Below, in pieces: positions 994 to 27,189 of a stretch of DNA of 64,000 nucleotides. Source of the DNA: Ceratodon purpureus (lineage: Eukaryota; Streptophyta; Bryopsida; Pseudoditrichales; Ditrichaceae); assembly GCA_014871385.1 (NCBI GenBank), contig CM026426.1, positions 21,194,573 to 21,258,572 on the forward strand, read 5' to 3'. Numbering within the stretch: the first letter of the stretch is position 1; the number at the start of each line of letters is the position of its first letter. A program made the translations under genes and the position numbers. Below the pieces are notes generated by a model. The model did no database searches. It saw only the letters and a list, made by a program, of their open reading frames with translations, and was not told the origin of the DNA.

Positions 994-1015
994 CATCGGG
1001 GGATCCCTCGATACG
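994..1015. repeat. 20-bp palindrome copy inside DUF7869 exon 2
   Basis: This is one copy of the dispersed palindrome with consensus CATCGRGGGATCYCYCGATG. It lies within the open frame and adds residues close to EGSPDV between two conserved family segments. Confidence 0.75.
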
Positions 1016-1822
1016 CAGTAAAATGTCAAGGCACCTAGACTTCCCCCTCAACAATGTCTCGAACAGTGAGTTTTGCGGGGGGTACTCAAATAGTTTCCTA
1101 GACTCCCGAAATGAGGGGCCTTCTAGTCTACAGAACAGCCTTGCCAATGACGATATTGTGGCGTTAGAATCTCCTGGCCAACACTGAGGACAGTAATGTG
1201 CATAGGCGCCATCCCCGTGCCCATGTGAAACCATACCAGTGACATTCATAGGAAGTTGGCCCAAACCTTGAGTAGCCTTTGTTGTAACCCGCATCCGGGG
1301 AAGGGCAATTTTTGCAGTATCCATCTTGAAATGAATAATGCACAGAATCTCACTGGGATTGCGCTTTGATTCTTCACACCATGCACCATACAGACGACGA
1401 CAAGAGGCTTGGTGAGCAAGATGCTCCTCCCGTTGCTTCACGAAGTCAACATATTCTGGACTTCCGTTAGTTGACTTTAGAATGAATTCTTGAAGTTGGT
1501 CACATGTCGAGCATTTTGCAAAAGAACTTCCAACCGGTTTGATTGCAATATTGTTGAAGAGTGAACTTCTAATTCTACTAATTGTAGACTGGCTCACTGT
1601 AGGCAGACCCAATGAAACATTTGTCTGCAAAGCACCGGAACGTCCAAATGGCTTGTGAGGCAAAGAAAGAGACGCACACAAGCGAAGAAGCTCCAAGTAT
1701 TACACGACAAATTATGACAAATCCCTTAAGAGGGGAAAAAAGGGTTATATATTGCACATGACGTAGGTAGAGTGCAACGATACTATAAGACAGAGAACTG
1801 ACTGTCAATACAAAAGTAACCT

Positions 1823-1845
1823 CTATCGGAAGATCTCCCGATGCA
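1823..1845. repeat. 20-bp palindrome copy in intron 1 of the DUF7869 gene
   Basis: The variant TATCGGAAGATCTCCCGATG sits within the 257-bp intron 1881-1625. Confidence 0.7.
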
Positions 1846-3173
1846 ATGACACTAGAAGACACGCGAAGCAAAGACTCGTACCTCATTGGCGTCAGCCATC
1901 ACTCGCTTCCAGTTGTTGCCTGCTGGAAGATATTTCAGAGTGTCCACTCGTCCATTTCCGATTCCTTGCATTTGATGGGGCATCTGATCGGCATTCTTGT
2001 CTACAATAGCAGCAATAGTACCAATGAATTGAACTATTCTGATCCTCGGTCGCTTGTAGCCCTTGTTTCCATGCGCTATTGAGAAAAAACCTTCGTTGTA
2101 TCTTTGGACATAGCTATGAAAAGTTGACTTGGGAACTTCGTGAATAAGATACCACGCAGTTGCGCAAACTTCCAAATCATGCAGCATCAAGTACTTCCTC
2201 CTACGGTCACCGTCGACTGAATGCATCTGTCCACCCGCCGCAATCCCGTATTCCCGTCTTCCTTGAAAGGATTTCGAATAGAATTTCTTACGCACTATTA
2301 GTATGAGCTCCTAGTGAAATGTCTGGCAGCAATGCTTCGAGTAGCATCGTTCGGAGCTAACCTTCATCACTTCAGCATCGGCTGTCTTTGTATTGTACAA
2401 CAAACGTTTTTTATGCGTTTTAGGTTTCCGCACTATAAACCGGTAAGGTGCCTTCCGTATGCCTCCAAGGTGCTCTTGCGGATCTACCTCCATGAAGATT
2501 CGCGAGAAGTGCTCGATTGTTGACCGAAGAGAAGGGCTGTTGGGGAATTTGCATTCAGATATCAACCAACGCTCATTACTCATTATGGCATCAGTGTCCC
2601 CGACAAAGACGTCGAGGATTGTCATTCCAATGTATCCCTCGCCCAATCTTCCGTCTCAAAAATACTCCTCCGATTCTAAGCAGAACACTCTACCGAAGGC
2701 TAAAACCGCACCCGCAAGGTCCAACCTCTGAACTTCCAGACCAATCCAGGATTGTTGACGAACGTATTCAACATCGTTCATGGGAGGATCCTGCAACAAT
2801 GCAATCGCATCATCAGCTCTCCAGAGGGTTGTTTGATTCAAAGCATCCCTCAAAACGCTGCAGCCTCTCTGGCGAGGTTTGAGGAAGAGGTCCTCTGCGT
2901 CCGACACGATGCTTGATGGTCGCACAAGAATAAATTCCGACGAGCCAGGTGGAATGCAAACTCCAAGCCACTGCCCAGAAGGATTAACGTCGACAACAGA
3001 TCTGATTCCAACATCTCCGAAACGGGGGACGACACGCTTCACAGACTGCCCGGGTCGAAGCTCATCACTACGAGCAGTTGATTCCTTAGAGAAGTCGTAA
3101 CCGGAAGGTCCCACAGACGGCATCAGGGGACCGTCACTGTCACTGCCAGAGTCCATTCTGAAGAGAGCCAAAG

Positions 3174-3326
3174 AAGTATCGGGGGATCTCTCGATGAGGG
3201 TCTCCAAAGAAGTATTGGGGGATCTCTCGATGAGGGTCTAAATCCTATAGGATCGGGGGATCTCCCGATGAGGGTCTCTCGATGAGGATCTCCAAAGCAG
3301 CATCGAGGGATCTCTCGATGAGGGTA
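3174..3326. repeat. Cluster of four palindrome copies upstream of the DUF7869 gene
   Basis: Four copies of the ATCGGGGGATCTCTCGATG palindrome stand within about 150 bp, each followed by AGGGTCT. They lie immediately 5' of the presumed start codon at 3156, so in the 5' leader or promoter of the minus-strand gene. A weaker relative is at about 3547-3562. Confidence 0.75.
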
Positions 3327-5100: not shown

Positions 5101-6127
5101 AACGTGCTACATAGTTGTTTGGTAACAGATGTATTTTTACGGCAGTATCAGATCTAAAACACCTTTCATATTTTATTTGGATGATGGTAGTACATCGCAT
5201 TGTTACTTTTTTATATTCATTCATGTGACCTTTCACGTTTTGAAAATGAGTCATACGTTATGAAAGTTCGTTGCAACTTTTCAAACTCAGTCGTAACTCT
5301 TCAAAACGTGAATTTTTAATTGTGCCTCTTTGTAATTTTCTAGGGATTTAATGAACTTCCATTTAAAATATGGTGCATCACAAAGTAAAAATTGAATTCA
5401 ATCTGAATTATGATGTGAATGGTTTATGTATTTAAGTCACACATGTAAGTAATTTCTTTAAAAAGCGTCGAAGTAACGTTGTATAAAAATGCTAAATATT
5501 AATTAAGGTATTTTTATATCACCTAACCTTTGTTATCAATGATTTTCATTTATAACGGGATATTTTAAGAAGACAATATAAGGGTAAAATGAATGACTTA
5601 ACAGTTCGCGTGAAACTAATTTCAAAGAAAAATGACTTGCACCATTTTCTTTTTAAAAATAATGATTTCATAATGAATCTTGTTGGATCGACTATGAGTC
5701 TGAATTTATCAAGTATGAAAATGCGAGGGTGATTTATAACTTACAATATATCAATAGTGCTGCCAATTTATTAGGTATTCAAATGAAATTATATATAAAA
5801 AAAAAGTTAATGGTGGTTTTTTGAGAATGGTAGAGTTATAATCCATGCGCGGTACCATGTGGATGACGGTAGGACAACGTATAAGGGGAACTCCATATTA
5901 GTTCTTCGAGCTCTAGGTTTATTACCAGGGAGTATCTATTATTGCATCTTCTATGTGACATAAATCTCTTGAAGATCTATCTAATTCATGAAATCATGAA
6001 AGGCGTACTCCATATTAGTTGTTTTTAATTTCATTTTTCTTTTATATTTCATTCCCGTCTCCTTTAACATGCCATTCTCTTTTCCACCATATTGCATTCC
6101 CTTCTCTTTAATTTTTCATTCGCTTCT
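5101..6127. other. AT-rich intergenic DNA with pyrimidine-rich CATTCCCTTCTCTTTTA repeats
   Basis: No coding region is recognisable. The last 100 bases are short T/C-rich units (CATTCCCGTCTCCTTTAA, CATTCGCTTCTCTTTTAT). The same sequence family resumes at 17,983, showing that the hAT element split it. Confidence 0.6.
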
Positions 6128-6135
6128 CTTTTATC
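6128..6135. repeat. Target-site duplication, left copy (CTTTTATC)
   Basis: The 8-bp CTTTTATC immediately precedes the terminal CAGGGTTGT. An identical 8-mer follows the other terminus at 17,975-17,982. Eight bases is the hAT superfamily length. Confidence 0.9.
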
Positions 6136-6236
6136 CAGGGTTGTCTATTCGGACGGACATGGGCAAAATTTCCAAACATAGACGGACGGACGGACGGACG
6201 GACCGGTCGGTCCCCAGACATAATCGGACATTGAGG
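6136..6236 (+). repeat. hAT left terminal inverted repeat and GGAC subterminal repeats
   Basis: Nine terminal bases CAGGGTTGT match the right end. They are followed by GGACGGACATGGG, then five tandem GGAC/ACGG units ending GGACCGGTCGGTCC. The right end has CATGGGAC followed by GGACCGGTCCGTCC in the same inward order. Confidence 0.85.
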
Positions 6237-6363
6237 GGAGGAGGAAAATTACTAAGTTAGTTTTTTTTTTTTACAACTTACCTATAGGGGAAACATATTG
6301 ATGACATGGACAATGAACGATGACGGGGAATTCCACATATGCAAAAGGGGTGCCAGCATGTGT

Positions 6364-6490
6364 AGGGGGCGAGAGCGGGTACAGGGGGGGCGCGAGCGGG
6401 TTCAGGGGGGGCGCGAGCGGGTTCAGGGGGGGGCGCGAGCGGGTTCAGGGGGGGAGCGCGAGCGGGTTCAGGGGGGGGCGCGAGCGGGTT
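6364..6490 (+). repeat. GC-rich array 1 (left subterminal), core GGGGGGCGCGAGC
   Basis: About five to six units of roughly 21 bp (GGGGGGGCGCGAGCGGGTTC type) run G-rich on the plus strand. They lie 3' of the RING gene and about 230 bp from the left terminus. Array 5 at the right end is C-rich on the same strand, so the two form an inverted subterminal pair. Confidence 0.85.
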
Positions 6491-6746
6491 TTTCGTGCGG
6501 CCCATTTTGTAGATAGTAAATTTTTGACAATGCAAAAAAACCTAACATTTTCATCAGAATAATATATTGAAGCTAAGCGCAATGACAAATGTGTAAATTC
6601 AGATACTCGTGAGCCAAAATACATGGACTTTGCAATGTTGTATACATTTATGAAAGTAAAAGCATTTCATTACCAATTCAAACCAAAACATTACAAAAAC
6701 TGTAGTATATGAAAACTAGTCACTTAGTACTAAGTTGTAACTATTC

Positions 6747-9128
6747 CTATTCATCTGCATCTACTCCCGCTGTGCCACTTGGTCCCGCTCCATCGTCCAG
6801 CGTCAAGCTGCGCCTCGCTCTCGTCCGTGTCCGCCGGAATGGGCCATCACTTTCACTGAGAGAACGCAGAATTTGCGAGTTCCTCAATTCTCTCAATGTA
6901 CGCAATGTCTGTGGAGAGTGTTCCTCCAGAAGAAAGTCAACAGCCTCATGTTTGAAAATTAACTTCCACTCCGAAAGAGACATTTGGACTGCATCTCGGG
7001 CGGTCAAAGACATGAACTGACCTTCGAGGTCTGTAACCAATTCCCCGTCCTTGTTCCATATGAGGACTTTTGGGTGATTACCAAGTTGGAACTTCCTATT
7101 CTTCGTATCCCAGTATCCATTCAAAGTCTGATAGAAGAAATTTCGTTTCCCTTGGTCCTCCTTCTTTGATCCAATTATCTTCTTTGCCACCCTCACAATC
7201 TGATTGGGGTCATCCTCCCACCCCAACTCGTCACTTACATTGCTCTTGAAGACTGAGTGAGTCTGGGCCCGCCAACTCCAAATCAAATCTTCCCCCCACA
7301 TGTTGCGGTACTCTTCACCTGGTGTGTTTTCGGGATTTCTCTCATGGCTTGGTGGCATGTATGGAGTGAGTCCAAAAACCTCGTACAAGCGTTCATGGAA
7401 CGGGGATTTGCACACCGGGCAAAATCTCCTTACCAAAAAAATGTTAATTAAACACATTGGATGGAACATGTGGGTACATGATCCAACTGCCCATCCACCC
7501 TCAGGACCAAATGTATTTAGACACACACTACATTCTTTTGAACCATCCATCACCCACGGTTGAGGATTTGGCCAAAGCTTTCTGCTATTAACTCCTTCCT
7601 TCATTTGAAGATCATGGCACAAAGTTGCGTTCTCCACATCGAAATTCAACTCGGCCCAATCTATGAGTTTAGGATTCGATTCTTGCATTGGCATGTTATC
7701 TGGATACATATCATCTGCGTTAATCCATGAAGTGAGGCCAAAATTCCTTCGTCTGTTGTGTTGCAAGTACGATTCGTCGATCTTCTTGAACTCTAATGCA
7801 ATTTGGCGACCGCGATCAACGCTGAGAATGGTTGCCACTTTCCACTCGTAGTATGCTTTAGCAAACTTAGAAACAAGGAGCCGCAAATCATTATTGGCTC
7901 TCATCAATGTCTCCACTTCTCCCGTTAGAGCATTGGGTGGAAATGACAAGGAATCTTGACTTAATGGTCCATCGATGTCCACATAGGATTGCGGGTATGG
8001 GGCTGGTGGAGGCAATATCACTCCAACTCGTCGTCGTTTTGCTGGTGTGGAAATATTCTCCAACACACCGGCCGTCGCAACATCAACCGTGTTGTTGATG
8101 TAAGATTCATCTACCAACATTGGATCCTGAACTACAGGTATATCATTGGCTTGAGAAGACTGAGGTCTTTCTCGTTCTTGCAATTGATTGCGCAAATCTG
8201 ATATTACTGCATCTTTTGCTGCTGATTCCAATCGTAGTTTTCGGATGGTCTCTCGTAACTCTGCAATGAAGCCATCCTTTTCTATAACCTGTAATTGCAA
8301 CTCCCCGACCTCCTCGGTTTGGTTAGACTGGTCATTTCTAACTACAACCGGCATGCCAAGAACCATCGTAGGTTCAGTTCCGACCACCTCCAAATTAGCT
8401 GCTGTATTTGGATCGTTTTCCACAAAGATGGTGTTCGCATCGTCGTGAGGTTCTATGACGTCCGCTGCATGGTTCATTGGAGGCTCTACAGCCATATTTG
8501 CTGGTGCTGCAATTCTACGTGGCACTCTTTCTCCACGACGACCATCGGAATCAGAATCTGGTTCAGACTCTGCTGTATCAGGCTCCCGCACTTGTGTTTT
8601 TTCCTTCATTTTTTTCCCCAGGCCACCATCTGCGTATTTCCTTTGTTTGGGAATGTCACGCTCTGTCGGCGCCCTAACACTCGGCGTGGATTTGATGGTG
8701 GACCAATCCACCACTTTGTGAAGCACCACCTCAGCATACACCATTCTGCAAATGAACAATGGTACTTCATTGCGTTCGACACAAGATTGCTTGTATAGAT
8801 GCTGGTAAACTTGTATAGAACGTTCAACAAACTCCGCATTCAAGCAATAATAGAGGTTAGCCTTGTCTGAGATCCTGTGTTTTCTGTGCCGATCATGTGG
8901 AAATATTTTTGTGATGTGGCACCATTCAATGAATTCCTCGCATGTGGAATATTTCCACGATTCCGGCTCATCTTGCCAACCTCTAAATGCCAACTTTGTC
9001 GGGTTGTTCAGCACATGAAGCCGCTTCTTCATCTTCTTACCACCACGCTTCCGTTCACGATCTCTGATTTTTTTCTTTTCGGCCTTGGTGAGTGGCCTTT
9101 CCGCCGCCGGATCTGGGTTTCCCTCCAT
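6747..9128 (-). CDS. RING-H2 coiled-coil protein, intact cargo gene of the hAT element
   Basis: An uninterrupted 793-residue protein starting MEGNPDPAAE and ending in TAG. Residues 8-37 are strongly basic, a likely nuclear localisation segment (KKKIRDRERKRGGKKMKKR). Residues about 100-145 hold a conserved-looking helix region with YAEVVLHKVVDW, related to the other two RING genes here. Residues about 270-320 are a heptad-rich coiled coil. The RING-H2 finger uses C533, C536, C551, H553, H556, C559, C570 and C573. It is followed by SPFHERLYEVFGL and a long C-terminal region. The protein probably acts as a ubiquitin ligase; substrate and role in transposition are unknown. Intactness inside a mobile element suggests selection or a recent arrival. 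The TATA-like box for this gene lies at 9,464-9,476. Confidence 0.85.
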   Translation of the reverse strand: MEGNPDPAAERPLTKAEKKKIRDRERKRGGKKMKKRLHVLNNPTKLAFRGWQDEPESWKYSTCEEFIEWCHITKIFPHDRHRKHRISDKANLYYCLNAEFVERSIQVYQHLYKQSCVERNEVPLFICRMVYAEVVLHKVVDWSTIKSTPSVRAPTERDIPKQRKYADGGLGKKMKEKTQVREPDTAESEPDSDSDGRRGERVPRRIAAPANMAVEPPMNHAADVIEPHDDANTIFVENDPNTAANLEVVGTEPTMVLGMPVVVRNDQSNQTEEVGELQLQVIEKDGFIAELRETIRKLRLESAAKDAVISDLRNQLQERERPQSSQANDIPVVQDPMLVDESYINNTVDVATAGVLENISTPAKRRRVGVILPPPAPYPQSYVDIDGPLSQDSLSFPPNALTGEVETLMRANNDLRLLVSKFAKAYYEWKVATILSVDRGRQIALEFKKIDESYLQHNRRRNFGLTSWINADDMYPDNMPMQESNPKLIDWAELNFDVENATLCHDLQMKEGVNSRKLWPNPQPWVMDGSKECSVCLNTFGPEGGWAVGSCTHMFHPMCLINIFLVRRFCPVCKSPFHERLYEVFGLTPYMPPSHERNPENTPGEEYRNMWGEDLIWSWRAQTHSVFKSNVSDELGWEDDPNQIVRVAKKIIGSKKEDQGKRNFFYQTLNGYWDTKNRKFQLGNHPKVLIWNKDGELVTDLEGQFMSLTARDAVQMSLSEWKLIFKHEAVDFLLEEHSPQTLRTLRELRNSQILRSLSESDGPFRRTRTRARRSLTLDDGAGPSGTAGVDADE

Positions 9129-9421
9129 CGTGGTGTAGTGGTAAAGTTTTGTGTGTTAAAAAACACACCAACTCCTCAAAACTTCCCCCAATTGATTTTA
9201 CAATTTTCCTACGTGGTTGATTATGGTATTCTAACTATACTTTGTGGCCCACCCAAGTATTCAGCAATAAGCCACCGTGAGGTAGTTTAGGGCCCGAATT
9301 CCCGGATGAGCGTACAAAATACGGTTGAACGAGGTACGTGGCGTTGTCAAAATGCTGTAGACCCCACCCAAGTACTCAGCAATAAGCCACCGCGAGGTAG
9401 TTCAAGGCCTGAGTGCCAAGG

Positions 9422-9590
9422 TGGAGCTTAAAAAGTGGGGGGGGGGGGGGAGGGCGCCCCCTTCACTTATATAGTCGGGGGGGGGGGGGGGGGGGGGGGG
9501 GGGCGCGAGCGGGTTCAGGGGGAGGTGCGCGAGCGGGTATGGGGGGGGCGCGAGCAGGTCCAGGGGTGGGCGCGAGAGGGTCCCCCCCTT
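9422..9590 (-). promoter_or_regulatory. GC-rich array 2 plus TATA box upstream of the RING gene
   Basis: Read on the minus strand, array units with core GCTCGCGCCCCCC (about 9,500-9,590) and a long C-run lead directly into GACTATATAAGTG at 9,476-9,464, about 335 bp before the RING start codon. The same arrangement, with GACTATATAAGG, precedes the kinase-like gene. Promoter function is inferred from position and the repeated design. Confidence 0.6.
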
Positions 9591-9599
9591 AAAAAAATC

Positions 9600-10010
9600 T
9601 CTCTTTTTTCTTAGGAGTAGCATTGAAGAAGGTTGGAAGACAATAATAAAAACAAATGCAATGGATTTTTTCACCATTTCTCTCAAAAATAAAATAAAAA
9701 ATAAAAAATTACAAAGAGATATTAAAATAAGGAATACTGATTTGAATAATTTGGGGATGAGATATCAAATTATAGAAAAACAATCATGACTATAATAAGA
9801 GACTCGGGATAAAAAGGGATGAATAACATGGGATGAAAGAAGTTATCAACATGAATAAATCTCATGATGATTAGAAACTGAGTTATGCCATAACGGAATA
9901 CTGATCTAATGCACCATGAATAATATAATGTTGACTACAAAAAAATTAGTGCATTAATATTAGAAGAGATGTGGAAATCTAAAAAAGATAAAACATTGGA
10001 AGAGACGAAG
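9600..10010. other. A-rich noncoding spacer inside the hAT element
   Basis: Purine- and A-rich sequence without open frames of note. It leads into the tandem repeat that follows. Confidence 0.5.
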
Positions 10011-11115
10011 GGAATAAAATAAAATCAATATCATGGAGAGGAAGAGATAAAAGGAATAAAATAAAATCAATAGCATGGTGTGGAAGACAGTTGAATTAGA
10101 GTTTAAAAAAATAATCTATATATTTCATTGTACATACGGATCCTACAATGCTCTAACATATAATTAAAAATATAAAGAATCATAAAGAAGGGCTCGATGC
10201 AATTGGTTTGGCAGATAAACGGAATAAAATTAAATCAATAGCATGGAGTGGAAGAGATAAAGGAAATAAAATTAAAAGAATAGCATGGTGTGGAAGAGAG
10301 TTGGATTAGAGTTTAAAAAAATAAAAAATATAATGCATTGTACATACGGATCTTACAATGCTTTAACATATAATTAAACAAAAAAAAGAACCGTTAGGAA
10401 GGGGCTTGATGCAATTGGTTTGGCAGATAGACGGTTTAAAATTAAATCAATAGCATGGAGTGGAAGAGAGAAAGGGAATAAAATTAAAAGAATAGCATGG
10501 TGTGGAAGAGAGTTGGATTAGAGTTTAAAAAAATAAAAAATATAATGCATTGTACATACGGATCCTACAATGCTTTAACATATAATTAAATATATAAAGA
10601 ATCATAAAGAAGGGCTCGATGCAATTGGTTTGGCAGATAAACGGAATAAAATTAAATCAATAGCATGGAGTGGAAGAGATAAAGGGAATAAAATAAAAAG
10701 AATAGCATGGTGTGGAAGAGAGTTGGATTAGAGTTTAAAAAAATAAAAAATATAATGCATTGTACATACGGATCCTACAATGCTCTAACATATAATTAAA
10801 AAAAAAAAGAACCGTTAGGAAGGGGCTTGATGCAATTGGATTGGGAGGTAAACGGAATGAAATTAAATCAAAATCATTGAGTGGAAGAGATGAAGCGATT
10901 AAAATTAAAAGAATAGCATGCTTTGGAAGACAATTGGATTAGAGTTTAAAAAAATAATCTATATATTTCATTGTACATACGGATCCTACAATGCTCTAAC
11001 ATATAATTAAAAATATAAAGAATCATTAAGAAGGGGCTCGATGCAATTGGTTTGGCAGATAGACGTTTTAAAATTAAATCAATAGCATGGAGTGGAAGAG
11101 AGCTGAATGAGAGGT
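10010..11115. repeat. Tandem repeat, unit about 210 bp, five copies
   Basis: Landmarks recur at about 210-base spacing. TTGTACATACGGATC occurs near 10,129, 10,349, 10,551, 10,764 and 10,973, and GATGCAATTGG follows each. Each unit also carries AATAGCATGGTGTGGAAG. The array lies between the RING promoter array and the kinase-gene promoter array. Confidence 0.85.
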
Positions 11116-11256
11116 TGTGCATGTATAAAATCCCTATGGTTTCTATTTTTTAATTTGTTTTTTTAAGTTTTTATTTTATTTTTTTCTCTTAGAAAGTAGT
11201 GTAGAGATTTCCAAAAGAAAAATATAAAATAAAAAAATAAGTTGGAAAACAAAAGG

Positions 11257-11509
11257 TGGGGGGGGGGGGGGGGGGGGGGGGGCGCGAGCGTGTCCGATGG
11301 GGCGCGAACGGGTGAAGGGGGCGCGGACAGGTACGGGCGCGAGCGGGTACAGGGGCGCGAGCGGGTCGGGGGGCGCGAGCGGGTACAGGGGCGCGAGCGG
11401 GTCGGGGGGCGCGAACGGGTATAGGGGGGCGGCGCGAGCGGGTACAGGGGGGCGCGAGCGGGTTAAGGGGGGGGGGCGCGAGCGGGTCCGTGGGGGACTA
11501 TATAAGGTG
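11257..11509 (+). promoter_or_regulatory. GC-rich array 3 plus TATA box upstream of the kinase-like gene
   Basis: About ten units with GGGGCGCGAGCGGGT run from a long G-tract to 11,490 and are followed at once by GGGGGACTATATAAGG (TATA at about 11,498-11,507). A T-run and CAG, a probable splice acceptor, occur at 11,641-11,649 just before the ATG at 11,664, suggesting a leader intron. Confidence 0.6.
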
Positions 11510-11663
11510 GAAAGAAGCTCTCGCCCCCCCCACTCCTTCCCACTGCGGCTCCTCGTCCTGACGTGTGAAAACACGCCTTGCTTGGAACTGCTTATGTGGG
11601 AAGTCTTCATTGGGGCGGGGGGGGGAAGTTGTTGAATTTTTTTTTTCAGGGATTTACTTTGCG

Positions 11664-13244
11664 ATGTCTTCTAGACAAGGCTCCGGCAAGCGGCCTATCT
11701 ATGAAGACTTGGATGCTCCAGATGCGGTGGACCCTATGAGTTGCGTAAGACCTCATGGTTCTACTGGTTCTACTCCTTCATCTAGCTCGAAGGGTAAAAA
11801 GAAGAAGAGTATTCCAGCGCACGAGAAGGATGACGGTTATCCACCATTGGAGTATACGCATTTCATCAGGAAGGTGACCGTCGAGTACTACAAGGCCCGT
11901 ACCATACGAATGTTGAAGGCAATGTACCTTGATCACGGAGAGAATGGTATCTACAACCTCCAATGTGATTTGGAAAGGGAATTTTGGAGCGCATTGGAAG
12001 GATCAGAGTTGTACATGGATTGCAAGACGAAGTATTTTCACAGCTCGAAGTGGTTGACACAACAAGTGAGTAGTGCTACGACAAATGTCATTCATGTGTT
12101 TGAATCACATGTCAAGAAACCACAAGGCGAAGAATGGAGCAACCAAGACAAAGTGTTTATTCAAAAACTGACAACGGTTCAGGAGGCATGTCAGAGATGT
12201 TCTAAGGGGAAAACAAAGATTATGCCTTAGAATGAGCAAGCATTGATCTCAGCACTGGAAGCACACATGTATGGTGCATTGATATGGATTCCGGTTACGG
12301 CCAAAGTTGTGCTATTATCTGGCTTCAATGCCGAGGGGGGGTATGGCAAAGTGCGAAAAGTGCGAATAGTCAATATGAAGAAAATTCCAATTCACATAGA
12401 ATTTGCGGGAAAACTTTCCAAGGCTAAAACCGAAGTGAAGAAGCGAGAGGAACGGGCGATTGAGGCCACAGTTAACCCCGTAGAGCATCCGGGTGTGATA
12501 AAATTTTGGGCCATTCACTCGAAGACCATGGAAGCTTACACCATGTGGTGGAATGGAGATTGCCTCCGCAACTTCCTCAAATTAAATGAGAAGGCGACCG
12601 AGGCAACAGATTACAAAGAAATTTTGAAGTCGAGGGATATGCCCATGGAAGAGTGCCAAAGAATTGTTGCCTATCGAAAGAACCGGGGAATGTTGGCGTG
12701 GAGTCTCATCTACGTTATGGACATAGTCCATAAGGCTGAAATCCTCCACAACGACTTAACGCAATCCAACATTCTACTCCACTTTCCACCTCATGACAAG
12801 GATAAAGTATATATTGGTGTGTGCGATTGGGGTGTGGCAAGCAGAGTCATTGAGAAGAAGGCCTCCCCTTATGGTGTGATGGACCCCGATGATCTTGTAC
12901 GAGTAAAGGAGAGGAGGGTAGGAGTTGCACCGGAGTTGTTCTTTTTATATGGCAAGAAAGATGATGAGGAACGGAATTTGGAGCGCATGAAGAGGATGCA
13001 TCCATGTACAACGCTATCTGATGCATTTTCGGTAGGCCATTTGGCAAAGATGATATGGAGAGAAGAAGATTGCCCAGAACTCTTCAAGGATTCAATCTCA
13101 AAGATTGTATTCTTATCAAAGTTGGATGGCTTGCTTAACGAAGATCCTACAAAGAGGCTTTCACTTGCAAAAGTTGTGAATGATTTGATGAGCCCCCCTT
13201 ACAACTTCCAAGCTCCCAATGGTTGTTTTAGATACACATTGTAG
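11664..13244 (+). pseudogene. Protein-kinase-like cargo gene with one in-frame TAG
   Basis: The frame starts at ATG 11,664 (MSSRQGSGKRPIYEDL) and is continuous to TAG at 13,242 except for a single TAG at 12,228-12,230. The C-terminal half is a divergent kinase fold. It has a glycine loop (EGGYGKVRKV, about 12,331), the VAIK-like FAGK lysine (about 12,400), a catalytic loop HNDLTQSN (about 12,747) in place of HRDxxxxN, CDWG in place of DFG (about 12,822), and VAPELFF in place of APE (about 12,925). Key Lys, Asp, Asn and Asp residues are present, so catalysis is possible for an intact copy. The N-terminal half is unrecognised, with a basic Lys-rich stretch near residue 45. Substrate and role are unknown. 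Whether the TAG kills the gene or the downstream half is expressed separately cannot be told here. Confidence 0.7.
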
Positions 13245-13454
13245 TTCCATAGTGAATTACGTTTCGAACATTTTGATTGCCTATGTGGCCTTGTTTGCAC
13301 ATTTCTAATATTTTAATAAATCGTTTTTTCGGCGTATACATGCCTTGGTGGAACATGAAATGGTATTGTTGGTTTTGTAATGGAATGAAAAATTGTTTTT
13401 AAAAAAAAAATTAAAAAACTGTATGGCCCATTCACCGGGACTGCCCCTCGTACA

Positions 13455-13713
13455 AGGGTGCCTCCCCCCCTCTGGAAGCTCGTGCCCCCCCCCTCTGGAA
13501 GCTCGCGCCCCCCCCCCTTTCCAGAAGCTTGCGCCCCCCCTCTAAGAAGCTCGCGCCCCCCCGTGGAAAAGCTCGCGCCCCCCCCTGGAAAAGCTCGCGC
13601 CCCCCCCCTATGGAGAAGCTCGCGCCCCCCCACCTGGAGAAACTCGCGCCCCCTGCACACGCTCGCGCCCCCCCGCCTGGAGAAACTCGCGCCCCCCCTC
13701 ACGAGTATAAATG
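13455..13713 (+). promoter_or_regulatory. GC-rich array 4 plus TATA box upstream of the hAT transposase
   Basis: About ten units with core GCTCGCGCCCCCC and spacers such as TGGAAAA or TGGAGAA are followed by CACGAGTATAAATGCC at about 13,700-13,713. A probable leader-intron acceptor (AACACTTGCAG) is at about 13,864-13,874, before the ATG at 13,910. Promoter role is inferred. Confidence 0.6.
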
Positions 13714-13909
13714 CCACCAACTTAGCCCAAGCCCAATATCATTTGAAATCATGGCCTCTAGTCCCGGAACTCCTTGTGGGCTCCTTGCTTGAGACTATGT
13801 GCATCACATTGGCCTGTGGTTGATGTCTACACATACCATTTTTTTCTCACATGTGTCATACTAACACTTGCAGACAGGAGATCATTGTACTTTTTCAGAG
13901 ACACGGAGA

Positions 13910-16900
13910 ATGGCAGGTCAACAGCGTCAGTCGACGGCTGAGTGGGCTCCGTGGTGGACGTTCATTGATAAGGACCATGTGAAATGTGTGTGGTGCAATT
14001 TCACCTTTCGTTATAAACGACAAAGAGCTTTCAAGCACTATGGATGGGGTGAAGGTTCAAGCAAGAGTCATTGTACCAAGGCCCCCGCCGCCGTATTTAG
14101 GCGCTTTGCCAATTGTGGTAATGTAATACCAAAAAGAATGACACATGCGGAGATATACGGCACTGATGGTGGTGATGGCGAGGCACACTTGGCACACTTG
14201 GCACCATGTTCTAGCCAGTCTATGCCTGCTGAGCAATCTACGGAAGTGCCTCAGAGAACGGAGGAGGTCCAAGAGGAGAGGATTTCCCAAGTTCAACCGT
14301 CTCAGTCAACTCCGCCTATAAGCAGAGGCGATTCATGTACACCAAGATCTATGCGGCAACAAAGTTTTACCGAGGCCTATCAGATTGGGATGCGCAATGA
14401 ATTGGATGAGAAATGGGCGTCCTTTTTTTACGAAGCGAATGTGCCTTTCAATGTGGTTAGACATCCATCTTTTATCGCTCTTGTGGAGGCAACATCGAAA
14501 GCGGGTTTTGTCTACCGTCCACCAGCATACAACGCAATGCGAACCAAGCACATCCAGCCAACAAAGCAGCTTCTCAAGATGAAAATAGAGGAGAAAACGA
14601 AGCAGTGTATTAGCTTGTACGGGGCAACTATTTGCTCGGATGGATGGGACAACGTTGTTCATCGGCCGTTGATGAATGTCATGCTTGTGTGTCCAGCAGG
14701 AGATATATTCCTAGGTTCCATTGATACAACGGGGTACAAGAAATCAAAGGCATACATAGCTGGGAAATTGAAAGAGTACATCAAAGAAGTTGGACCGCAG
14801 AATGTGGTACAGATTTGCTCCGACAATGCTAGTGCGATGTTGGGAGCCATGGACCAGGTGGTTGAAGCTTATCCTCACATTTACAAGCAAGGTTGTGCAG
14901 CTCACATCATGGACCTCTTACTAGAAGATTGGGGGAAGGAAGCAACCTTCAAAGAGCTGATTGCCTTGGCAAAACGCATACCAAATTTTATACGTCGCCG
15001 TCATGTCACCATGGCTTTGTTTCGCCAATTCAGCCCGAAGTTGTCTCTGTTGTTACCAGCGGAGACAAGATTTGGATGCCAGTACTTGATGATTGTTCGA
15101 TTGCTTCAACTGAGGGAGGCACTAATCCAGGTGGTAGCCAGTCCGAAATGGGACGAATATGTGGGTACTTTATTCAATCGGTCAAACGGGTATCGAGCTC
15201 ACGCCTTAGCATGTCAAGTACGGAGTACCATTCTCGATGAGACATTTTGGTTACGTTGTGAGGATCTTGTGCATGTTATGAAGCCGGCTATTGTGACCTT
15301 GAAGACATTTGATGGACAAACACCGGCAATGGGGAGGGCATGGTTGGCCATGAATAATTTGAAGAAGTATGTGTTCCGTCTACGGGGTGATCCTTTTTTC
15401 CTAGACCCCGCTATAGCAGATCGCTTTGAGAAACATTTTACGAAGAGATGGAAGATGATGTTGACAGATCTTCATTACGCAGGCGCCATTTTGAATCCCT
15501 ACATTTTCCCGGAGAGCCACGAGCTATTGACTAACAGTGCTGCGAAGCGTGCACTCCTGCAAGTGCTAATTCATTTGAGTGAGTCCCTTAAACTGGACCA
15601 CGATACTGTGTTGTTCGAGCTAACACAGTTTGAGGAACGCACCGGTCCATTCAGCCCTTTGGAGGCCCCAAACATTCGACAGACTAAGATGCTACCTCAT
15701 CAATGGTGGCAGCGGGTTGGGGGCGATGCGTTACCGTTGATAGCAAAGCGCATCCTTTCGTTAACATGCTCGGCATCATCATGTGAGCGAAATTGGAGCA
15801 TGTATTCCTTTGTTCACAGTAAGGTTCGCAACCGATTGGCCGTGAAGAAGGCAGAGGACTTGGTGTACATTTACACGAACAGTAAGCTCCTTCGAGAACG
15901 ACGTGGAGCAGATCCTGTTCTTTGGTACGAGAACCAACCGTTCTCCGAAGACTCGGATGAAGAAGTGCCAGCCATGTACGATGAAGACGTATGTGATGAT
16001 GATGGAGATGAAGGATTCCACGACGGACTTGAAGATAATGAAGGCGATGGTGACGACGGTGGACTTCATTATACTCCTGCTACTATGGATGATGAGTATC
16101 AGGAGTTACCCGTGGACAATGGTGATGGTGACATGCCACGCACTGAACCCGTTAACCAGCCGAATGGAGTTTTTGACTGGGCAGGATTTGATGAAGAGGC
16201 AGCTACTTCGCCTCACCACGTTGTCAATGAAATACAAACTAGAGGCGAGGTCGCATACGATCGGGCAGACGATGATATTGACGATGAATTTGAAGTCGAA
16301 ATGACTCAGCATCAAAGCGACGATGGTGGCGTTAATGATGACATTCACCCCGTTCGTGGCGTTTCCAACAATGACAATGAAGGAGGGGGTAACAACATGG
16401 GAGAGCAAATTCCAATTCCAGAAGACGTTGAGGGAGGAGAAGAAGTTGAACAACTCCAGGGCACTCTGCCAGTAAATGTTGAGGAAACAATCAGGTCCGG
16501 AGGTTTGGATGAAAGCCCTCCAAGAAATGAACAATCAGAGTCAGTCAGAAATGGACACGAAGATGAAATTCCTATTGGCCGATTGTTTCAAACACCCCTG
16601 CCCCAGAGTACACCTTCAATCGGAGCAGTACTTGCAGGGTTGGGTCGACCTCCCCCACCTCGTTCAAGCACTTCTACTGGGCATGGTTCATTAACTCCAA
16701 CACCGAATACAAGCATTCCACTCACTTCTTCTGGACGAAGTCTACCAGCTGGACCTTCTACGACGCGTCATGGAGTGATACGGTCACGGAAAGGTCCAAC
16801 AAACGTTCGCCTTTTTTTTTCAGGATATACTGTTGGAACTACCGCGTCTTTACCTGTGGCTGTGGGTAAACGTAGATTACCCGTAATGAATGTGGACGGA

Positions 16901-17194
16901 ATCACCGATAAGACCAAAAGACGGAAGATCAAAAGAATTGTGACCACAGTGGTGGATGGTACAATTGACCACGAATTGCGCAACATTCATTCCACGGTGG
17001 AGGAGTATGTGCCTAATCAGGGGGGAGATGGAGATGACGAGGGGTCGAAATCCTCAGAAGGATATTACTCATCAGAAGATAGCCGTGAAGAAGCACCTGA
17101 TGATGAAGACATTGTTGTAAGAGTACCATTGGGTATGCCCGGTACTCGAAGGAATCCAGAGCGGCGCACCGCCAAAAAAAACAAAAAAAAATGA
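13910..17194 (+). CDS. hAT transposase with BED finger, DUF659 core and acidic C-terminal extension
   Basis: An intact 1,094-residue protein. I chose ATG 13,910 (MAGQQRQSTAEWAPWW) because the BED-like zinc finger begins at once: C26-x2-C29, then H43 and HC at 54-55. The RNase-H-like core shows CSDGW with D244, QICSDNASAM with D305, GCAAHIMDLLLEDW, and the C-terminal hAT dimerisation segment SASSCERNWSMYS with E626, giving a complete D-D-E set. After about residue 680 comes a long Asp/Glu-rich, low-complexity tail not typical of short hAT transposases. The protein cuts and pastes the element by binding terminal and subterminal repeats. It lies between arrays 4 and 5. A T-run plus CAG near 16,810-16,822 could mark a retained intron end, but the frame stays open. 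Confidence 0.92.
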   Translation: MAGQQRQSTAEWAPWWTFIDKDHVKCVWCNFTFRYKRQRAFKHYGWGEGSSKSHCTKAPAAVFRRFANCGNVIPKRMTHAEIYGTDGGDGEAHLAHLAPCSSQSMPAEQSTEVPQRTEEVQEERISQVQPSQSTPPISRGDSCTPRSMRQQSFTEAYQIGMRNELDEKWASFFYEANVPFNVVRHPSFIALVEATSKAGFVYRPPAYNAMRTKHIQPTKQLLKMKIEEKTKQCISLYGATICSDGWDNVVHRPLMNVMLVCPAGDIFLGSIDTTGYKKSKAYIAGKLKEYIKEVGPQNVVQICSDNASAMLGAMDQVVEAYPHIYKQGCAAHIMDLLLEDWGKEATFKELIALAKRIPNFIRRRHVTMALFRQFSPKLSLLLPAETRFGCQYLMIVRLLQLREALIQVVASPKWDEYVGTLFNRSNGYRAHALACQVRSTILDETFWLRCEDLVHVMKPAIVTLKTFDGQTPAMGRAWLAMNNLKKYVFRLRGDPFFLDPAIADRFEKHFTKRWKMMLTDLHYAGAILNPYIFPESHELLTNSAAKRALLQVLIHLSESLKLDHDTVLFELTQFEERTGPFSPLEAPNIRQTKMLPHQWWQRVGGDALPLIAKRILSLTCSASSCERNWSMYSFVHSKVRNRLAVKKAEDLVYIYTNSKLLRERRGADPVLWYENQPFSEDSDEEVPAMYDEDVCDDDGDEGFHDGLEDNEGDGDDGGLHYTPATMDDEYQELPVDNGDGDMPRTEPVNQPNGVFDWAGFDEEAATSPHHVVNEIQTRGEVAYDRADDDIDDEFEVEMTQHQSDDGGVNDDIHPVRGVSNNDNEGGGNNMGEQIPIPEDVEGGEEVEQLQGTLPVNVEETIRSGGLDESPPRNEQSESVRNGHEDEIPIGRLFQTPLPQSTPSIGAVLAGLGRPPPPRSSTSTGHGSLTPTPNTSIPLTSSGRSLPAGPSTTRHGVIRSRKGPTNVRLFFSGYTVGTTASLPVAVGKRRLPVMNVDGITDKTKRRKIKRIVTTVVDGTIDHELRNIHSTVEEYVPNQGGDGDDEGSKSSEGYYSSEDSREEAPDDEDIVVRVPLGMPGTRRNPERRTAKKNKKK

Positions 17195-17282
17195 TACATC
17201 TATTAGCATATTATATATAGAAGTTAGATAGAGAAAGTATAATATATATGTCTCCAAAATAATTTTAAAAAAACACAAAAAA

Positions 17283-17331
<49 letters not shown>

Positions 17332-17499
17332 AAATTTTATACGTAGATACTTATATGTTAACCTTAGTCAATGTCCATAAAACATTAGCTAAGGCTATTG
17401 AATCTAATTTTGTTTCGACATGAATTGAAACTTCTCTCATTTATGTCACTATGAAAAATTCAGTCATGCCTTAATTTCCTTCAATGGTTGATTCTTGTT
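17195..17499. repeat. 3' flank of the transposase with a (TA)n microsatellite
   Basis: AT-rich noncoding sequence containing a TA dinucleotide run at about 17,287-17,329. Nothing else recognised. Confidence 0.7.
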
Positions 17500-17760
17500 C
17501 CCCGCTCGCGCCCCCCCTTCGCAGGCGCTCGCCCCCCCACCGTAAACCCCTTGCTCGCGCCCCCCTGCCATCGCCGGCGCTCGCGCCCCCCCCCCCCCGC
17601 CATCAAAGGCGCTCGCGCCCCCCCCCCCCCCGCCATCAAAGGCGCTCGCGCCCCCCCCCCCTCGCAGGCGCCCGCGCCCCTCCCAGTCGCTCGCGCCCCC
17701 TCGCTCGCGCCCCCCCTCTCAGCCGCTCGTGCCCCCCTCACTCAAAGCGTTGGCGCCCTT
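17500..17760 (-). repeat. GC-rich array 5 (right subterminal), core GCTCGCGCCCCCC
   Basis: About ten units (GCGCTCGCGCCCCCCCC with CCATCAAAG spacers) run C-rich on the plus strand and end about 210 bp from the right terminus. They mirror array 1. Confidence 0.85.
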
Positions 17761-17889
17761 CCTCTTAGCCACGTCATCCCCCGAGTCAACAATATATGTG
17801 GAATATTTGGTAACATGTCAGACGCGTGGCATCCTAGGTGGCCAAGGTAACTCCTATTTCACCATTTGGGTGGTCAACCGTAAGTCCTG

Positions 17890-17974
17890 GTCAAACGGAC
17901 CTCCCCTGACCCCTAACGGACGGACGAGCGGACCGGACGGACGGACCGGTCCTTTTGTCCCATGAACAACCCTG
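17890..17974 (-). repeat. hAT right terminal inverted repeat and GGAC subterminal repeats
   Basis: GGACGGACGAGCGGACCGG and GGACGGACCGGTCC are followed by TTTTGTCCCATGAAC and the terminal ACAACCCTG. The target duplication CTTTTATC follows at 17,975-17,982. Confidence 0.87.
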
Positions 17975-17982
17975 CTTTTATC

Positions 17983-18440
17983 TATCATTCCCTTATCTTT
18001 TATTTTTAAATGTGCGTTTTCTTTTATGCCCGTGATATTATTATTTCCTATTATGAGTTTTGTTTTAATTCTTATTCAATGTAATTCCCCTCTCTTTTAT
18101 ATTTCATTCGGTTCTCTTTTATATTTGATTTTTTATTTTTTATTTTTAGTTTTTTTAATTTTTAATTCTCATTTACTTTTAAAAGTAATCCCATTAAACT
18201 CTTTTGATTCACTTCATTCTATTTTATATTTTTTTTTTCGTTATTCTGAATATCCAATTTAGTTTTCTATTTTCTTTGTTCATTTCTCATCGTTCATTAA
18301 TTTCCAATTAATATCAAGGGGTCACTTCAATTGACTGCATGCACTCATGAGCTAGAGATTGGTGCCCCTTAATGTACGTTGTTCTCCTCCAAGAACGTGC
18401 TAACCCGTTTTCTTTTTTATTATGGTACTAAGTTTCCACT
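17983..18440. other. Pyrimidine-rich noncoding sequence, continuation of the hAT insertion target
   Basis: T/C-rich units (TTTATATTTCATTCGGTTC, CATTCCCTTATCTTTTAT) of the same family as 6,030-6,127. No gene seen. Confidence 0.6.
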
Positions 18441-19547: not shown

Positions 19548-20072
19548 TGGTCCATCGGGGGATCTCTCGATGCGTCAGTATCTCCTTCCCATTCTGTGGG
19601 AACGGCAAGTCATCGGGGGATCTCTCGATGACCACTCTGCACATGTCCTGGGTCCATCGGGGGATCCCTCGATGTGTTGGTATCCCCTTCCCATCCTGTG
19701 GGTATGGCATAATATCGGGGGATCTCTCGATGACCCACTCACGAGAAACCATATTTATAAAACATAAACTAATAACCAGGTAACCTCACCCTCCACAATA
19801 CACTGTATGGATAGTGCTAATTGCATTTGGGATCTTTTAATGCTTAGGTATCATATCCTTGGTCCATCGGGGGATCCCTCGATGTGTTGGTATCCCCTTC
19901 CTATCCTGTGGGTATGGCAGAACATCGGGGGATCTCTCGATGACCTCAGTGTCCCTTTCGTTCCTCTGCTTTTTTCTATGGTCCTCCAAGATAGTTGTTG
20001 TCCTGTAAGTAATGCGCATAGCCCCTCATGCGTGTGTATAAATCAAAGTCGTCGAGAGATCCCTCGATGATC
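19548..20072. repeat. Intron 1 palindrome cluster: three units of about 105 bp with paired palindromes
   Basis: The unit reads GGTCCATCGGGGGATC(T/C)CTCGATG, then about 35 bp containing CCTTCCCAT-CTGTGGG, then TATCGGGGGATCTCTCGATGA. Copies start near 19,550, 19,650 and 19,860. A single inverted-type copy stands at about 20,049-20,070. Confidence 0.85.
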
Positions 20073-21475
20073 CAATTTGTATAACTGTTAATTGATTTGG
20101 AGGAGGAATTTGACCAACAGTGGTGTATGTCTGTTCTGCAGGGAACAACAAATAATGGAACCACCAAGTGACCACAGACCCGTGAAGCTGTTCCCCTTTG
20201 TCGATTTTTGGATCCATGGCTACAATTTCGAGGGTGAATCAAATCGCTACGCAATCTACCGCTGCAATAAGAACGTCACCGCATGGGCCATGTTGTGGAA
20301 GGATACGGCAGGAGGCATGGCCGTCATTGTTCCCCATCTCACCTGTGAAGGGCAGATCCATTCCCCGATTGGATTGAACGTTCTCGAACTGAAAGGCCTT
20401 GACGTGGAGACAGCTATCATGGTGGTGGAGGAGAAGATGCCGAATCCGATCGGGCTGTAACTTATGGATTGATCCTCGACCTCTGCAAGCTCAGCCTGAT
20501 TCAGTGTGCATCCCTCACTGCCAAGGGGTTCATGTACCTGCCGGAGGATAAGGCGACGTGGGATCCGGCACATATTGAAAATCAGAAGAACCTAATCGAC
20601 GAGGCGCAAAGTGAGGCTGCAGCTGCTGCTCTTGGTCAATCGCAAGCTCCGACTGCGTCTACTCCTACCATGATGCGGGGCACAAAACAGAAATCATCCT
20701 TGATCAATGACGGGGAAACTGCGGTGCCTGACACAAGGAAGGGCAAGAAGGGAAAGGGTGATGACAAGCTCACTCTTCAGCAGTGTGTAACAATGTTAGC
20801 TTCGGATATTGAGAAGCTGGACAAGACCAAGCAGAAAAAGATGAAGACCTTGTACAGCGAGGCTTTTGAACCCCTGTACAAGTGGGGCCACGAGAGGCTG
20901 AAGGATGAGAAGGAGGCGCCAAGAACTGTGCATTTCTCAAAGCTGCACTGGGCCCCTCCAGGTTCAATTTTCTACCAAGGACTTATTCCGGACAGGTTAA
21001 AAGCTTCGACGAACCAGACGCGCATTGCTCCGAGGTACAGTGGAACGGATAGAGAAATCACTGTACTTCCACTGAAAAAGGGAGGGTATGGAGAAAAAGA
21101 TCTCGTAGAGTTTTTCAATAAACCTTTGGAAAAGAATCAGATAAAGAGCGCCACAAACTTCTACATCATTGGGGGCCAGCATACGGTTCAGTGTTACCAA
21201 AATCTCGTCGAGAGTGGGGAAATTGATGAGGCTGACAAAGACAAGGCGTCGAAGTTCTCTATTATCCCAGTGTGGGCGCCCAAGCCTGAGCACATCAAGC
21301 TCATGCTCCTCTCACGTGTCCTAAACCAGGATATGGCCGGCCCACAGAAGAAGCACACATTCATGATGCAGGTGCTCAATGCCAGAATCAAGTGGAAAGA
21401 GATGAAGAAGCCGATGCCTGCTTTACAGGGACGGCAGCACCCTAAAGAATTCGTGGTAAGTTTGTATTCCCTCCG

Positions 21476-21498
21476 TCATCGAGAGATCCCCCGATGAT
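21476..21498. repeat. Palindrome copy at the start of intron 2
   Basis: CATCGAGAGATCCCCCGATG, 20 bp after the donor site. A partner copy (CATCGGGGGATCCCCCAATG) stands near the intron end at 21,941-21,960. Confidence 0.75.
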
Positions 21499-21559
21499 CC
21501 GAGTTGTAGAAATGTATATGGCCTCTTAGACATTACGTGCAAAAATAGGTCTAGAAAAG

Positions 21560-21722
21560 GCTGTGTAAGTGGCACGTGAGAGAAAGAAATGGCCCCTGTC
21601 CGCGTACTTTTTGACATGGCACTGGCTGTGCCACCGTGGTGCCGGCAACCGCCACGGGGACTCGAACCAATGACCTTCTCGCGAGGCGTGTGGAGGGCAT
21701 TGCTACAGTGGTGGATTGACAG
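21560..21722 (-). mobile_element. tRNA-derived SINE inside intron 2
   Basis: On the minus strand, a B-box-like GGTTCGAGTCCCC (21,671-21,659) follows an A-box-like GTAGCAATGCCC (about 21,706-21,695). The body then runs through CCACGGTGGCACAG and AAAGTACGCGGACAG to TTTCTCTCACGTGCC. The body recurs near 48,330-48,405. This is a SINE, not a tRNA gene: the tRNA fold is not preserved and a long non-tRNA body follows. Confidence 0.55.
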
Positions 21723-21837
21723 CATCTGCCCACTTTGGACCAAACTCCGAGCCGACCCGATCATGTCAGCTTGCATATTCCGAGGACCTTTGTTCAAGAC
21801 GCGCCACCGAGGGGCGTGCGAGCAGCAATTCTCGCAT

Positions 21838-21935
21838 CTGCTGCCAGCGGGGGGCAGGGGGTTCACCTACAAAGGGCAGGCTTACACGGCCTATTCCAGA
21901 CCCCATTTTGCACGTAATGGTATTCCTCATACTAC
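21838..21935. repeat. Dispersed repeat shared with 50,338-50,442
   Basis: Both copies share CTGCCAGC, GGTTCACC, a GGC-rich middle and the exact block AGACCCCATTTTGCACG followed by a GGTATT. They may be the 5' part of the neighbouring SINE or a separate family. Confidence 0.6.
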
Positions 21936-23606
21936 CCATCATCGGGGGATCCCCCAATGGCAACTTCCTTATCGAAGAGCGCTACTAACCTCTCCCCCGA
22001 CGTCTGTAGGAATTCGTTCCAGCTCTCGCATCAATCTTCACAAACGTGAAGGAATCAGAGCTAAGGGACTGCAAGATACTTCTACTGTTTATTAAAGACG
22101 ACACGGCCGTTGACCGATGGGTGGAGATTGAGAAACAGTACATGGAGGGGAAGCTGCCAGATGTGCAAGGGAATGTGCAGACGAACTATGACCTCAAGCG
22201 TAAGCCTTTTGTCCTGAATGACTTAAAACCGTTATACGGCCTGCGCTCATTGGATATCCACTACCTTGCTGACCTTGTGGAGAGAAAAGAAATCTCTGTG
22301 AAGGGATCGAAGGCCACCAAAGGTGATAAAATGGCAAGATTTCAAACAGCAGGGATCAAGGAACGACTGGTCAGGCTGATGAAGAACGAGTTGATGAGCA
22401 CCTATTGTGGGTGGGAGCTTCCAAGCCGTAAGAGCTCATACGTAATGTATCAAGCACATGAATGGGACGAGTTTGCCGATAAGAAGTCCATCACTCGCGC
22501 GGAGCTGGAGAGCTGGCTCGATAAGGCGTATGCATCGGCTGCGGGGAAGAAGTGGTTGGACGAACAAAACAAGAACCTCAACAAGACGTCTGATCCTGCG
22601 GACGTGCCTGACTTTGTTAAGGTGATGTGGGACGCACTCAACATGGTACAACAGCAAGCAAGTGTGGCATCGCACATCCAGAGGGGGTTTGAAACGAAGT
22701 ACAAGTGCATGGTTACGGAGAGGATTAGGCCCGACATTTCTGGCCTTCTTGGAAGTGAAGAAGTGTATCATTGGAGAGGAAGGGAAAAAATACACATATT
22801 CATGTACTTCCTGTTTGATGCGATCGCTGACATGCTAGTGAAAGCTCACGTGTTGGCCGAAAATAGGCTGACTCGGATATTTGATCCTCTAGAAGGCGAG
22901 GAACGAAACAGTACGCAGGTCCTTGAACGCTCAGGAGCAGTTCTATTCATAGATGCGGCGGGATTCCATGCCACACTTACGCACATTGAAACGCGCACGA
23001 GGACAGCGAAGAGGAAGTTGTGGAATTGGCATGTGATCCACTACGTCCCTTCCCGCGAGGACGGATTTCCCGATCCGGAGGTGGGTTCTTCGTATGTTGT
23101 GTACATGACTTTCTGCTTCGCTTATTTGCTAATGCAGTTGACGAAGGAATGCTTCGGGGATTTTCATTGCGGAGAAGAGGGCATTTGACGCAGTGTACCT
23201 GGCGAAGGACATTACGGAAACCATCGAGCAATGGAAACGACCTGGTCGACCAACGATTAAGCTGGCCGCGCTTTCTACTCTCTTTCAGCAGCACATCAAA
23301 GATAACATGGTACTCGTAAATGTCAACGCCGGGCTCACTTCACCCTTCTTGGACTTGTAAGTACTCTGTCTGCACCCTTCGAATGCTGAAGTCATATTAT
23401 AAATTTCTCTTTAAGTGACTCGAACGCTTCCACTTTATTTCGCATTTGTGCGAATAGGCTCTTGTTCTTGAGGCTTATTATGCAGATGTCCTCCATTTAT
23501 AGTACTCGCGATATATGCATTTGTTCACTCACGTATATAGAATCTAAGTCAAAGGTCCTTTTTTGTTCAGAGCCTCAGTGTTTCCTGATATGTCTTCACG
23601 GATGCA

Positions 23607-23698
23607 AGATTTATTGGGGGATCCCTCGATGGACGGTTAACGTCTAGAATGACGGTATAGGGATTCTCAAATCATCGAGGGATCCCCCAATAAATCAT
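23607..23698. repeat. Two oppositely oriented palindrome copies in one intron
   Basis: TATTGGGGGATCCCTCGATG at about 23,611 and its near-complement CATCGAGGGATCCCCCAATA at about 23,672 bracket about 40 bp. Together they make a larger inverted repeat within the intron between 23,356 and 23,819. Confidence 0.75.
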
Positions 23699-25979: not shown

Positions 25980-26118
25980 TGTATCGAGGGATCTCCCGAT
26001 GCTGAATTCTGATGAGACATATTTTCAGTGGACATCTATATCGAGGGATCTCCTGATGCGAATGTTCATCAGACCTCTTTATAGTGGACATCTGTATCGA
26101 GGGATCTCCCGATGCTGA
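25980..26118. repeat. Three tandem palindrome units in the intron before the FCP1-like exon
   Basis: Units of about 56 bp (ACATCTGTATCGAGGGATCTCCCGATG plus a GAATTCTGATGAGAC spacer) start near 25,976, 26,032 and 26,088. Confidence 0.8.
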
Positions 26119-27012: not shown

Positions 27013-27189
27013 TAGCTCTCTCATCTTTGATAGCAAAATGAAACTAACCAAGTTCCTTAAAATTTTCATTTGTCTTCCTGAATGCAATGGAGTTTTGGAA
27101 CTTTGAATTTGTTTTGTTTTAAAATCGCTTTGCTGTGGTAATACTCTTTCAAGACATGGTCTGACCACCTCTGTGTGCCATGGCGTTGG

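Follow-up and report, generated by a model that had tools for sequence, protein, structure and literature searches.

Autonomous transposons of the hAT superfamily usually carry one gene, as in maize Ac, which at 4.6 kb produces a single transcript and has no accessory genes (PMC3260210; this and the two other papers cited here are drawn on for the parts of them available). The element described here departs from this plan. It lies at 6136-17974 of a 64-kb stretch of Ceratodon purpureus contig CM026426.1, the whole of which is called the window, and probably represents a hAT-superfamily transposon organized as a three-gene unit, in which a RING-H2 gene and a protein kinase gene are native accessory genes that stand, with the transposase gene, under a common promoter repeat. 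If this is correct, the element would provide a eukaryotic transposon in which a built-in regulatory circuit can be put to the test, as well as a simple search rule for other such elements, namely one repeat at both ends and in the promoters.

Transposons with Additional Regulatory Genes

The closest described parallel is found in Puccinia rust fungi, where bounded hAT7 elements carry TET/JBP dioxygenase genes (PMC12730594). These elements resemble the present one in joining a hAT transposase and a regulatory enzyme gene within one bounded element, while they differ in being fungal, in having a DNA dioxygenase as the extra gene and in their 7-bp duplication, and the available part of the account mentions neither RING nor kinase genes (PMC12730594). 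A scan of four open reading frames (ORFs) gave no match to a TET/JBP family which, together with the 8-bp duplication here, places the element outside the TET-positive hAT7 group. IS3EU is likewise a DNA transposon with three genes, among them a transposase and a kinase, but it belongs to another superfamily, makes a 6-bp duplication and encodes an alpha-kinase (PMC12730594), whereas the kinase here matches Pkinase (PF00069). The Burro elements of planarians, which are giant Gypsy-like retrotransposons, include a RING zinc-finger motif among their extra motifs, but they are long terminal repeat (LTR) retrotransposons without a hAT transposase (PMC6431247).

An earlier note on this DNA, made from the sequence alone, considered the pairing of regulatory cargo with an intact transposase not to be a described hAT architecture. 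Given the TET/JBP genes of hAT7 and the alpha-kinase of IS3EU, this is too strong (PMC12730594). A hAT carrying a RING gene plus a kinase gene was not found among the matches listed from the open PubMed Central literature, and in a review of giant eukaryotic transposons hAT, kinase and ubiquitin each occur 0 times as whole words in the part of the main text available (PMC6431247). A bounded hAT with a regulatory enzyme is thus known. What is new is that a hAT combines RING with kinase, that its host is probably a moss, and that one repeat lies at both promoters and ends.

Element Ends and the Shared Repeat

The unit is 11,839 bp long and is bounded by inverted copies of CAGGGTTGT, exact matches at 6136..6144 on the plus strand and 17966..17974 on the minus strand. 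Flanking each side is CTTTTATC, the 8-bp target duplication (sequence matches at 6128..6135 and 17975..17982, both plus strand). Terminal inverted repeats of hAT elements are short and start with a CAGGG-like sequence; the exact inverted end here is 9 bp. CAGGGTTGT matches the window twice, at the two element ends, but since at least 2 matches also arose in 12 of 100 shuffles, the ends alone are no proof. CTTTTATC has 2 further matches elsewhere in the window, and CTTTTAT recurs once in the left and four times in the right 150-bp flank; because of this recurrence in A+T-rich flanks, the duplication counts for less than a match between random 8-mers would. When 9-bp inverted pairs 0.2-20 kb apart with identical flanking 8-mers were sought across the window, this element was the one pair returned, and the same scan returned 0 in each of 5 block shuffles. 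A search for alternative ends of at least 11 bp with duplications of at least 4 bp gave three weak pairs, none convincing, and Rfam over 6000-18100 gave no match at gathering scores.

The element combines the marks of a hAT transposon, an 8-bp duplication, short inverted ends and a transposase with a DDE triad and a C-terminal dimerisation domain. The GGAC-rich subterminal repeats reported by the earlier note are present as well: the window holds 39 copies of CGGAC (overlaps counted), with 8 in the leftmost 200 bp of the unit (6150..6229, plus strand) and 7 in the rightmost 200 bp (17896..17946, plus strand). Ac/Ds, another hAT system with an 8-bp duplication, has 11-bp inverted ends against 9 here and also short subterminal repeats, among them the AAACGG hexamers of Ac that are bound by its transposase (PMC3260210). 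By analogy with Ac, the CGGAC copies, which occupy the same place, are likely to be transposase-binding sites. The two 300-bp flanks are similar to each other: their local alignment scores 93, while up to 200 pairs drawn at random across the window (none less than 1 kb apart, A+T content unmatched) had a median of 29 and reached 77 at most. Judged by their sequence, the flanks look like one A+T-rich tract.

The feature that unites the ends with the genes is a second motif, GCGCGAG. It occurs 35 times in the window, with 32 copies inside the element in five arrays (5, 4, 8, 8 and 7 copies) and 3 single copies outside, while 20 order-2 Markov sequences held 0-8 copies. GCGCGAGC occurs 29 times in the window, every one inside the element. 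The spacing of GCGCGAG is mostly 18-25 bp and is wider at the right end. Two arrays lie close to the ends, in opposite orientation: array 1 has five copies every 21-23 bp (6364..6494, plus strand; motifs 6390-6484, 0.25-0.35 kb inside the left end), and array 5 has seven (17500..17740, minus strand; motifs 17505-17710, 0.26-0.47 kb inside the right end).

The remaining three arrays each occupy a promoter, and from each the sense-strand TATA box of its gene follows 14-30 bp on. Upstream of the RING TATA box CTATATAAG (9467..9473, minus strand) is array 2, with a G run and four copies (9477..9581, plus strand; motifs 9503-9576). Array 3, with a G run and eight copies (11258..11497, plus strand; motifs 11282-11482), lies upstream of the kinase TATA box, again CTATATAAG (11499..11505, plus strand), and the eight copies of array 4 (13450..13700, minus strand; motifs 13502-13692) lie upstream of the transposase TATA box GTATAAATG (13706..13712, plus strand). 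The G runs measure 27 bases (9477-9503) and 25 bases (11258-11282). The RING and kinase promoters also have the core GACTATATAAG in common; they are divergent, and are separated by A+T-rich sequence in which a 210-bp unit is repeated in tandem about five times (9974..11157). Because the promoter of a recently captured passenger should lack the repeat of the element itself, we infer that RING and kinase are native genes of the transposon lineage.

The Three Genes

The transposase gene (13910..17194, plus strand) is intact. Its frame is open over 13868-17194, and from the ATG at 13910 it encodes 1094 aa with DUF659 and Dimer_Tnp_hAT domains, the Pfam matches being PF04937 (114.2 bits, cut-off 34.7) and PF05699 (28.5 bits, cut-off 21.4). 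Asp244, Asp305 and Glu626 coincide in alignment with the D, D and E columns of Hermes (structures 8edg and 6dww), although the similarity to Hermes is weak (E 0.0004 with the single sequence, 0.006 with the profile) and its chain has 612 residues compared to 1094 here. When the transposase is taken together with 16 of its 45 relatives, which were drawn from the best 7996 candidates scored, Asp244 and Asp305 are present in 17/17 and Glu626 in 16/17, the exception being a Chara protein (P0066). Past residue 670 the protein continues into an acidic C-terminal tail (Asp 10.6%, Glu 9.9%). The closest named relative is P0029 of Ceratodon purpureus, with 93% identity over aligned residues, or 82% with gaps over 69% of it, and this points to a moss as the most likely host; both P0029 and P0032, also from Ceratodon purpureus, are annotated as single proteins. 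NCBIfam gave no match to the transposase.

On the minus strand, the RING-H2 gene (6747..9128) is an uninterrupted ORF for a coiled-coil protein of 793 aa with long predicted helices. The RING-H2 finger spans residues 533-573, and all zinc ligands are present in the arrangement C-x2-C...C-x-H-x2-H-x2-C...C-x2-C. It scores 27.4 bits against zf-RING_2, where the cut-off is 27.3; the remaining RING models are under their cut-offs, and NCBIfam gave no match. Profile searches with the RING matched RNF24, RNF38 and Arkadia, and from its sequence the protein appears to be ubiquitin-ligase-like. Its relatives number 25, from the best 7990 candidates scored. A structure model of the RING protein was discarded as too weak (pLDDT 53.4). 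Between the RING TATA box and the ATG is a 55-bp direct repeat, 87% alike (9248-9302 and 9363-9417).

The protein kinase gene (11664..13244, plus strand) has 526 codons and a single in-frame stop at codon 189 (12228-12230), so that its reading frame is not intact in this copy. A relative with 96% identity, P0071, is open throughout, and the structure model of this relative shows a clear kinase fold. The 50 matches listed from a viral fold library were kinases wherever named; NCBIfam gave three matches to P0071, all under cut-off. The family replaces the usual HRD with HND and DFG with DWG (DFG is kept in 1/20), while the catalytic Lys and Glu, the HxD Asp, the Asn and the DxG Asp are present in 20/20 aligned relatives (20 of 97). 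A search of prokaryote genomes gave 3 weak local matches to the kinase. Scans of viral contigs with the transposase alignment, the RING alignment, the kinase alignment and P0071 gave 0 relatives each, with the element's own genome perhaps outside the scans.

The gene content given in the earlier note, an intact transposase with this triad, an intact RING protein and a kinase-like gene with one stop, thus proved accurate. With the stop in its kinase, this copy probably lacks full autonomy unless relatives provide that protein.

Relatives and Linkage

Both accessory families are diverged, with 26-96% identity to their relatives, and their zinc-binding and catalytic residues are conserved. Many relatives sit on contigs of a few kb, and linkage was judged from equal contig size. 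A transposase, P0057, and a kinase, P0124, are both on contigs of 15,563 bases, and each is about one-third identical to its counterpart here. Long contigs (8-35 kb) number 2 for the transposase and 10 for the kinase, and among these only 0.0007 coincidences of size are expected, so an old link between transposase and kinase is likely, although not certain. A pairing of P0006 with P0118 by equal contig size (2719) was rejected, as both genes do not fit. The clusters of P0010 (47 members), P0077 (47) and P0030 (43) are alike in size and divergence and might represent one subfamily; they were not counted as evidence. Other kinase clusters, one with 79 members and one with 56, lack comparable partners among the matches listed.

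Several observations weigh against the three-gene reading. The probable link between transposase and kinase is drawn from equal contig size, and in no relative does the contig-size comparison connect RING to a transposase or a kinase. Both relatives named as Ceratodon purpureus are transposases, and none is found among the RING or kinase relatives (about one-quarter of the proteins are named); this either argues against constant linkage or reflects missing names and masked gene models. The numbers of relatives also differ (25 RING and 45 transposase, from the best 7990 and 7996 candidates scored, and 97 kinase), and some kinases or RINGs may stand alone. In this copy, the kinase is broken and also carries P367Q at a conserved catalytic-loop position, and across the aligned relatives conservation is incomplete at Gly228, the second loop glycine (16/20), and at the APE-like Ala422 (17/20), Pro423 (19/20) and Glu424 (16/20). 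Differences from the closest relative at conserved columns, observed against expected, are 2/5.6 for RING, 2/3.8 for kinase and 7/9.7 for the transposase against P0029. The differences avoid conserved columns, which by sequence comparison is the right direction for constraint but a weak signal. TATAWAW is common in the element, with 28 matches on the plus and 26 on the minus strand, most of which (20 and 22, respectively) fall within a TA repeat at 17.2-17.34 kb. Because such matches are not rare here, the weight of the promoter argument rests on the arrays and their positions.

Proposed Mechanism and Alternative Explanations

How might such a unit work? A DNA-binding protein encoded by the element itself, with the transposase as the most likely candidate, may read the shared GCGCGAG arrays, which would tie end recognition to the transcription of the three genes together. 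Both accessory proteins could then act in trans, either on the transposase with its acidic tail or on host silencing factors: the kinase might phosphorylate one or the other, and the RING protein might restrain the transposase or eliminate a host factor. The outcome would be that transposition is timed or licensed. Tentatively, and with rather less confidence than we place in the three-gene unit itself, we suggest that the element belongs to an old moss hAT lineage of self-regulating three-gene units, in which one repeat serves ends and promoters and a kinase and ubiquitin ligase of the element's own control the transposase or disarm host silencing. This may be a general design in the genome, as hinted by a second repeat-bearing element with several genes in the window (∼1-27 kb).

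A variant that overlaps the three-gene unit holds that RING and kinase are native genes whose products act mainly on the host rather than on transposition, either by countering silencing or through stress signalling. The TET/JBP, SET and Vandal anti-silencing proteins of other transposons are epigenetic regulators of this sort (PMC12730594), and the array motif GCGCGAG holds two CpG. The sequence names no host target, and promoter arrays shared by all three genes fit self-regulation at least equally, which makes an action mainly on the host a serious but somewhat unlikely possibility.

Less probable is that a one-gene hAT recently captured two adjacent host genes that have no role in the element. 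Gene capture is known for Pack-MULEs and Helitrons, although full-length host genes within them are termed exceptionally rare (PMC6431247), and the kinase copy is already broken. One repeat is common to all three promoters and both ends, however, and the families of RING and kinase are diverged, with no named plant host gene among the matches (few of which are named), while a kinase and a distant transposase probably share one 15.6-kb contig. The earlier note's description of a cargo-carrying hAT therefore stands in so far as RING and kinase genes form one bounded unit with an intact transposase, while its suggestion of recent capture is not supported, considering the diverged families, their conserved zinc and active-site residues, and the repeat that ties their promoters to the transposase promoter and the ends.

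Slightly less probable again is a composite of two elements, in which either the hAT inserted into another transposon that carried RING and kinase, or that transposon inserted into the hAT. Nesting is apparently present at this locus, where the unit sits between copies of another repeat, but the window has a sole 9-bp end pair with an 8-bp duplication, and the GCGCGAG arrays mark the ends and all three genes alike. An assembly artefact joining unrelated sequences across the G/C-homopolymer runs is very improbable, since, hard as runs of 27 and 25 G are to assemble, the two flanks are alike, the ends and duplication are consistent, and the repeat arrays unify the parts.

Surrounding Repeat and Other Features of the Window

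The other repeat is CATCGGGGGATCTCTCGATG, which at up to 4 mismatches occurs 22 times in the window, 6 times to the left of the unit, 16 times to the right and 0 times inside. This distribution suggests that the three-gene hAT landed in another repeat-bearing element, and it lends independent support to the boundaries of the unit. The CATCGGGGGATCTCTCGATG-like copies span 994-3311 and 19553-27256, and among them are ORFs for a DUF7869 domain (734-1696, minus strand) and for an NLI-interacting-factor-like phosphatase (26138-26812). A TATAAA at 20037 directly precedes the copy at 20050. The region looks like a second multi-gene element that has a repeat of its own and is interrupted by the hAT.

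Within the window, no further members of the RING, kinase or transposase families were found at E ≤1 except for a weak RING match at 30860-31336 (E 0.044). An ORF with Pre-SET and SET domains, histone-methyltransferase-like (33999-34703), is close to a coiled-coil ORF that has a weak and incomplete RING (30872-31339), and the two are possibly one more cargo element. Another coiled-coil, cysteine-rich ORF (45062-45595) is RING-like by eye, without a Pfam RING match, and an array of the palindromic repeat GCCGGTACCGGC (47005-47528) lies ∼1.4 kb past it. Finally, a run of ORFs at 57445-62850 resembles by eye the reverse transcriptase and adjoining domains of a non-LTR retrotransposon, in a region of strong GC skew.

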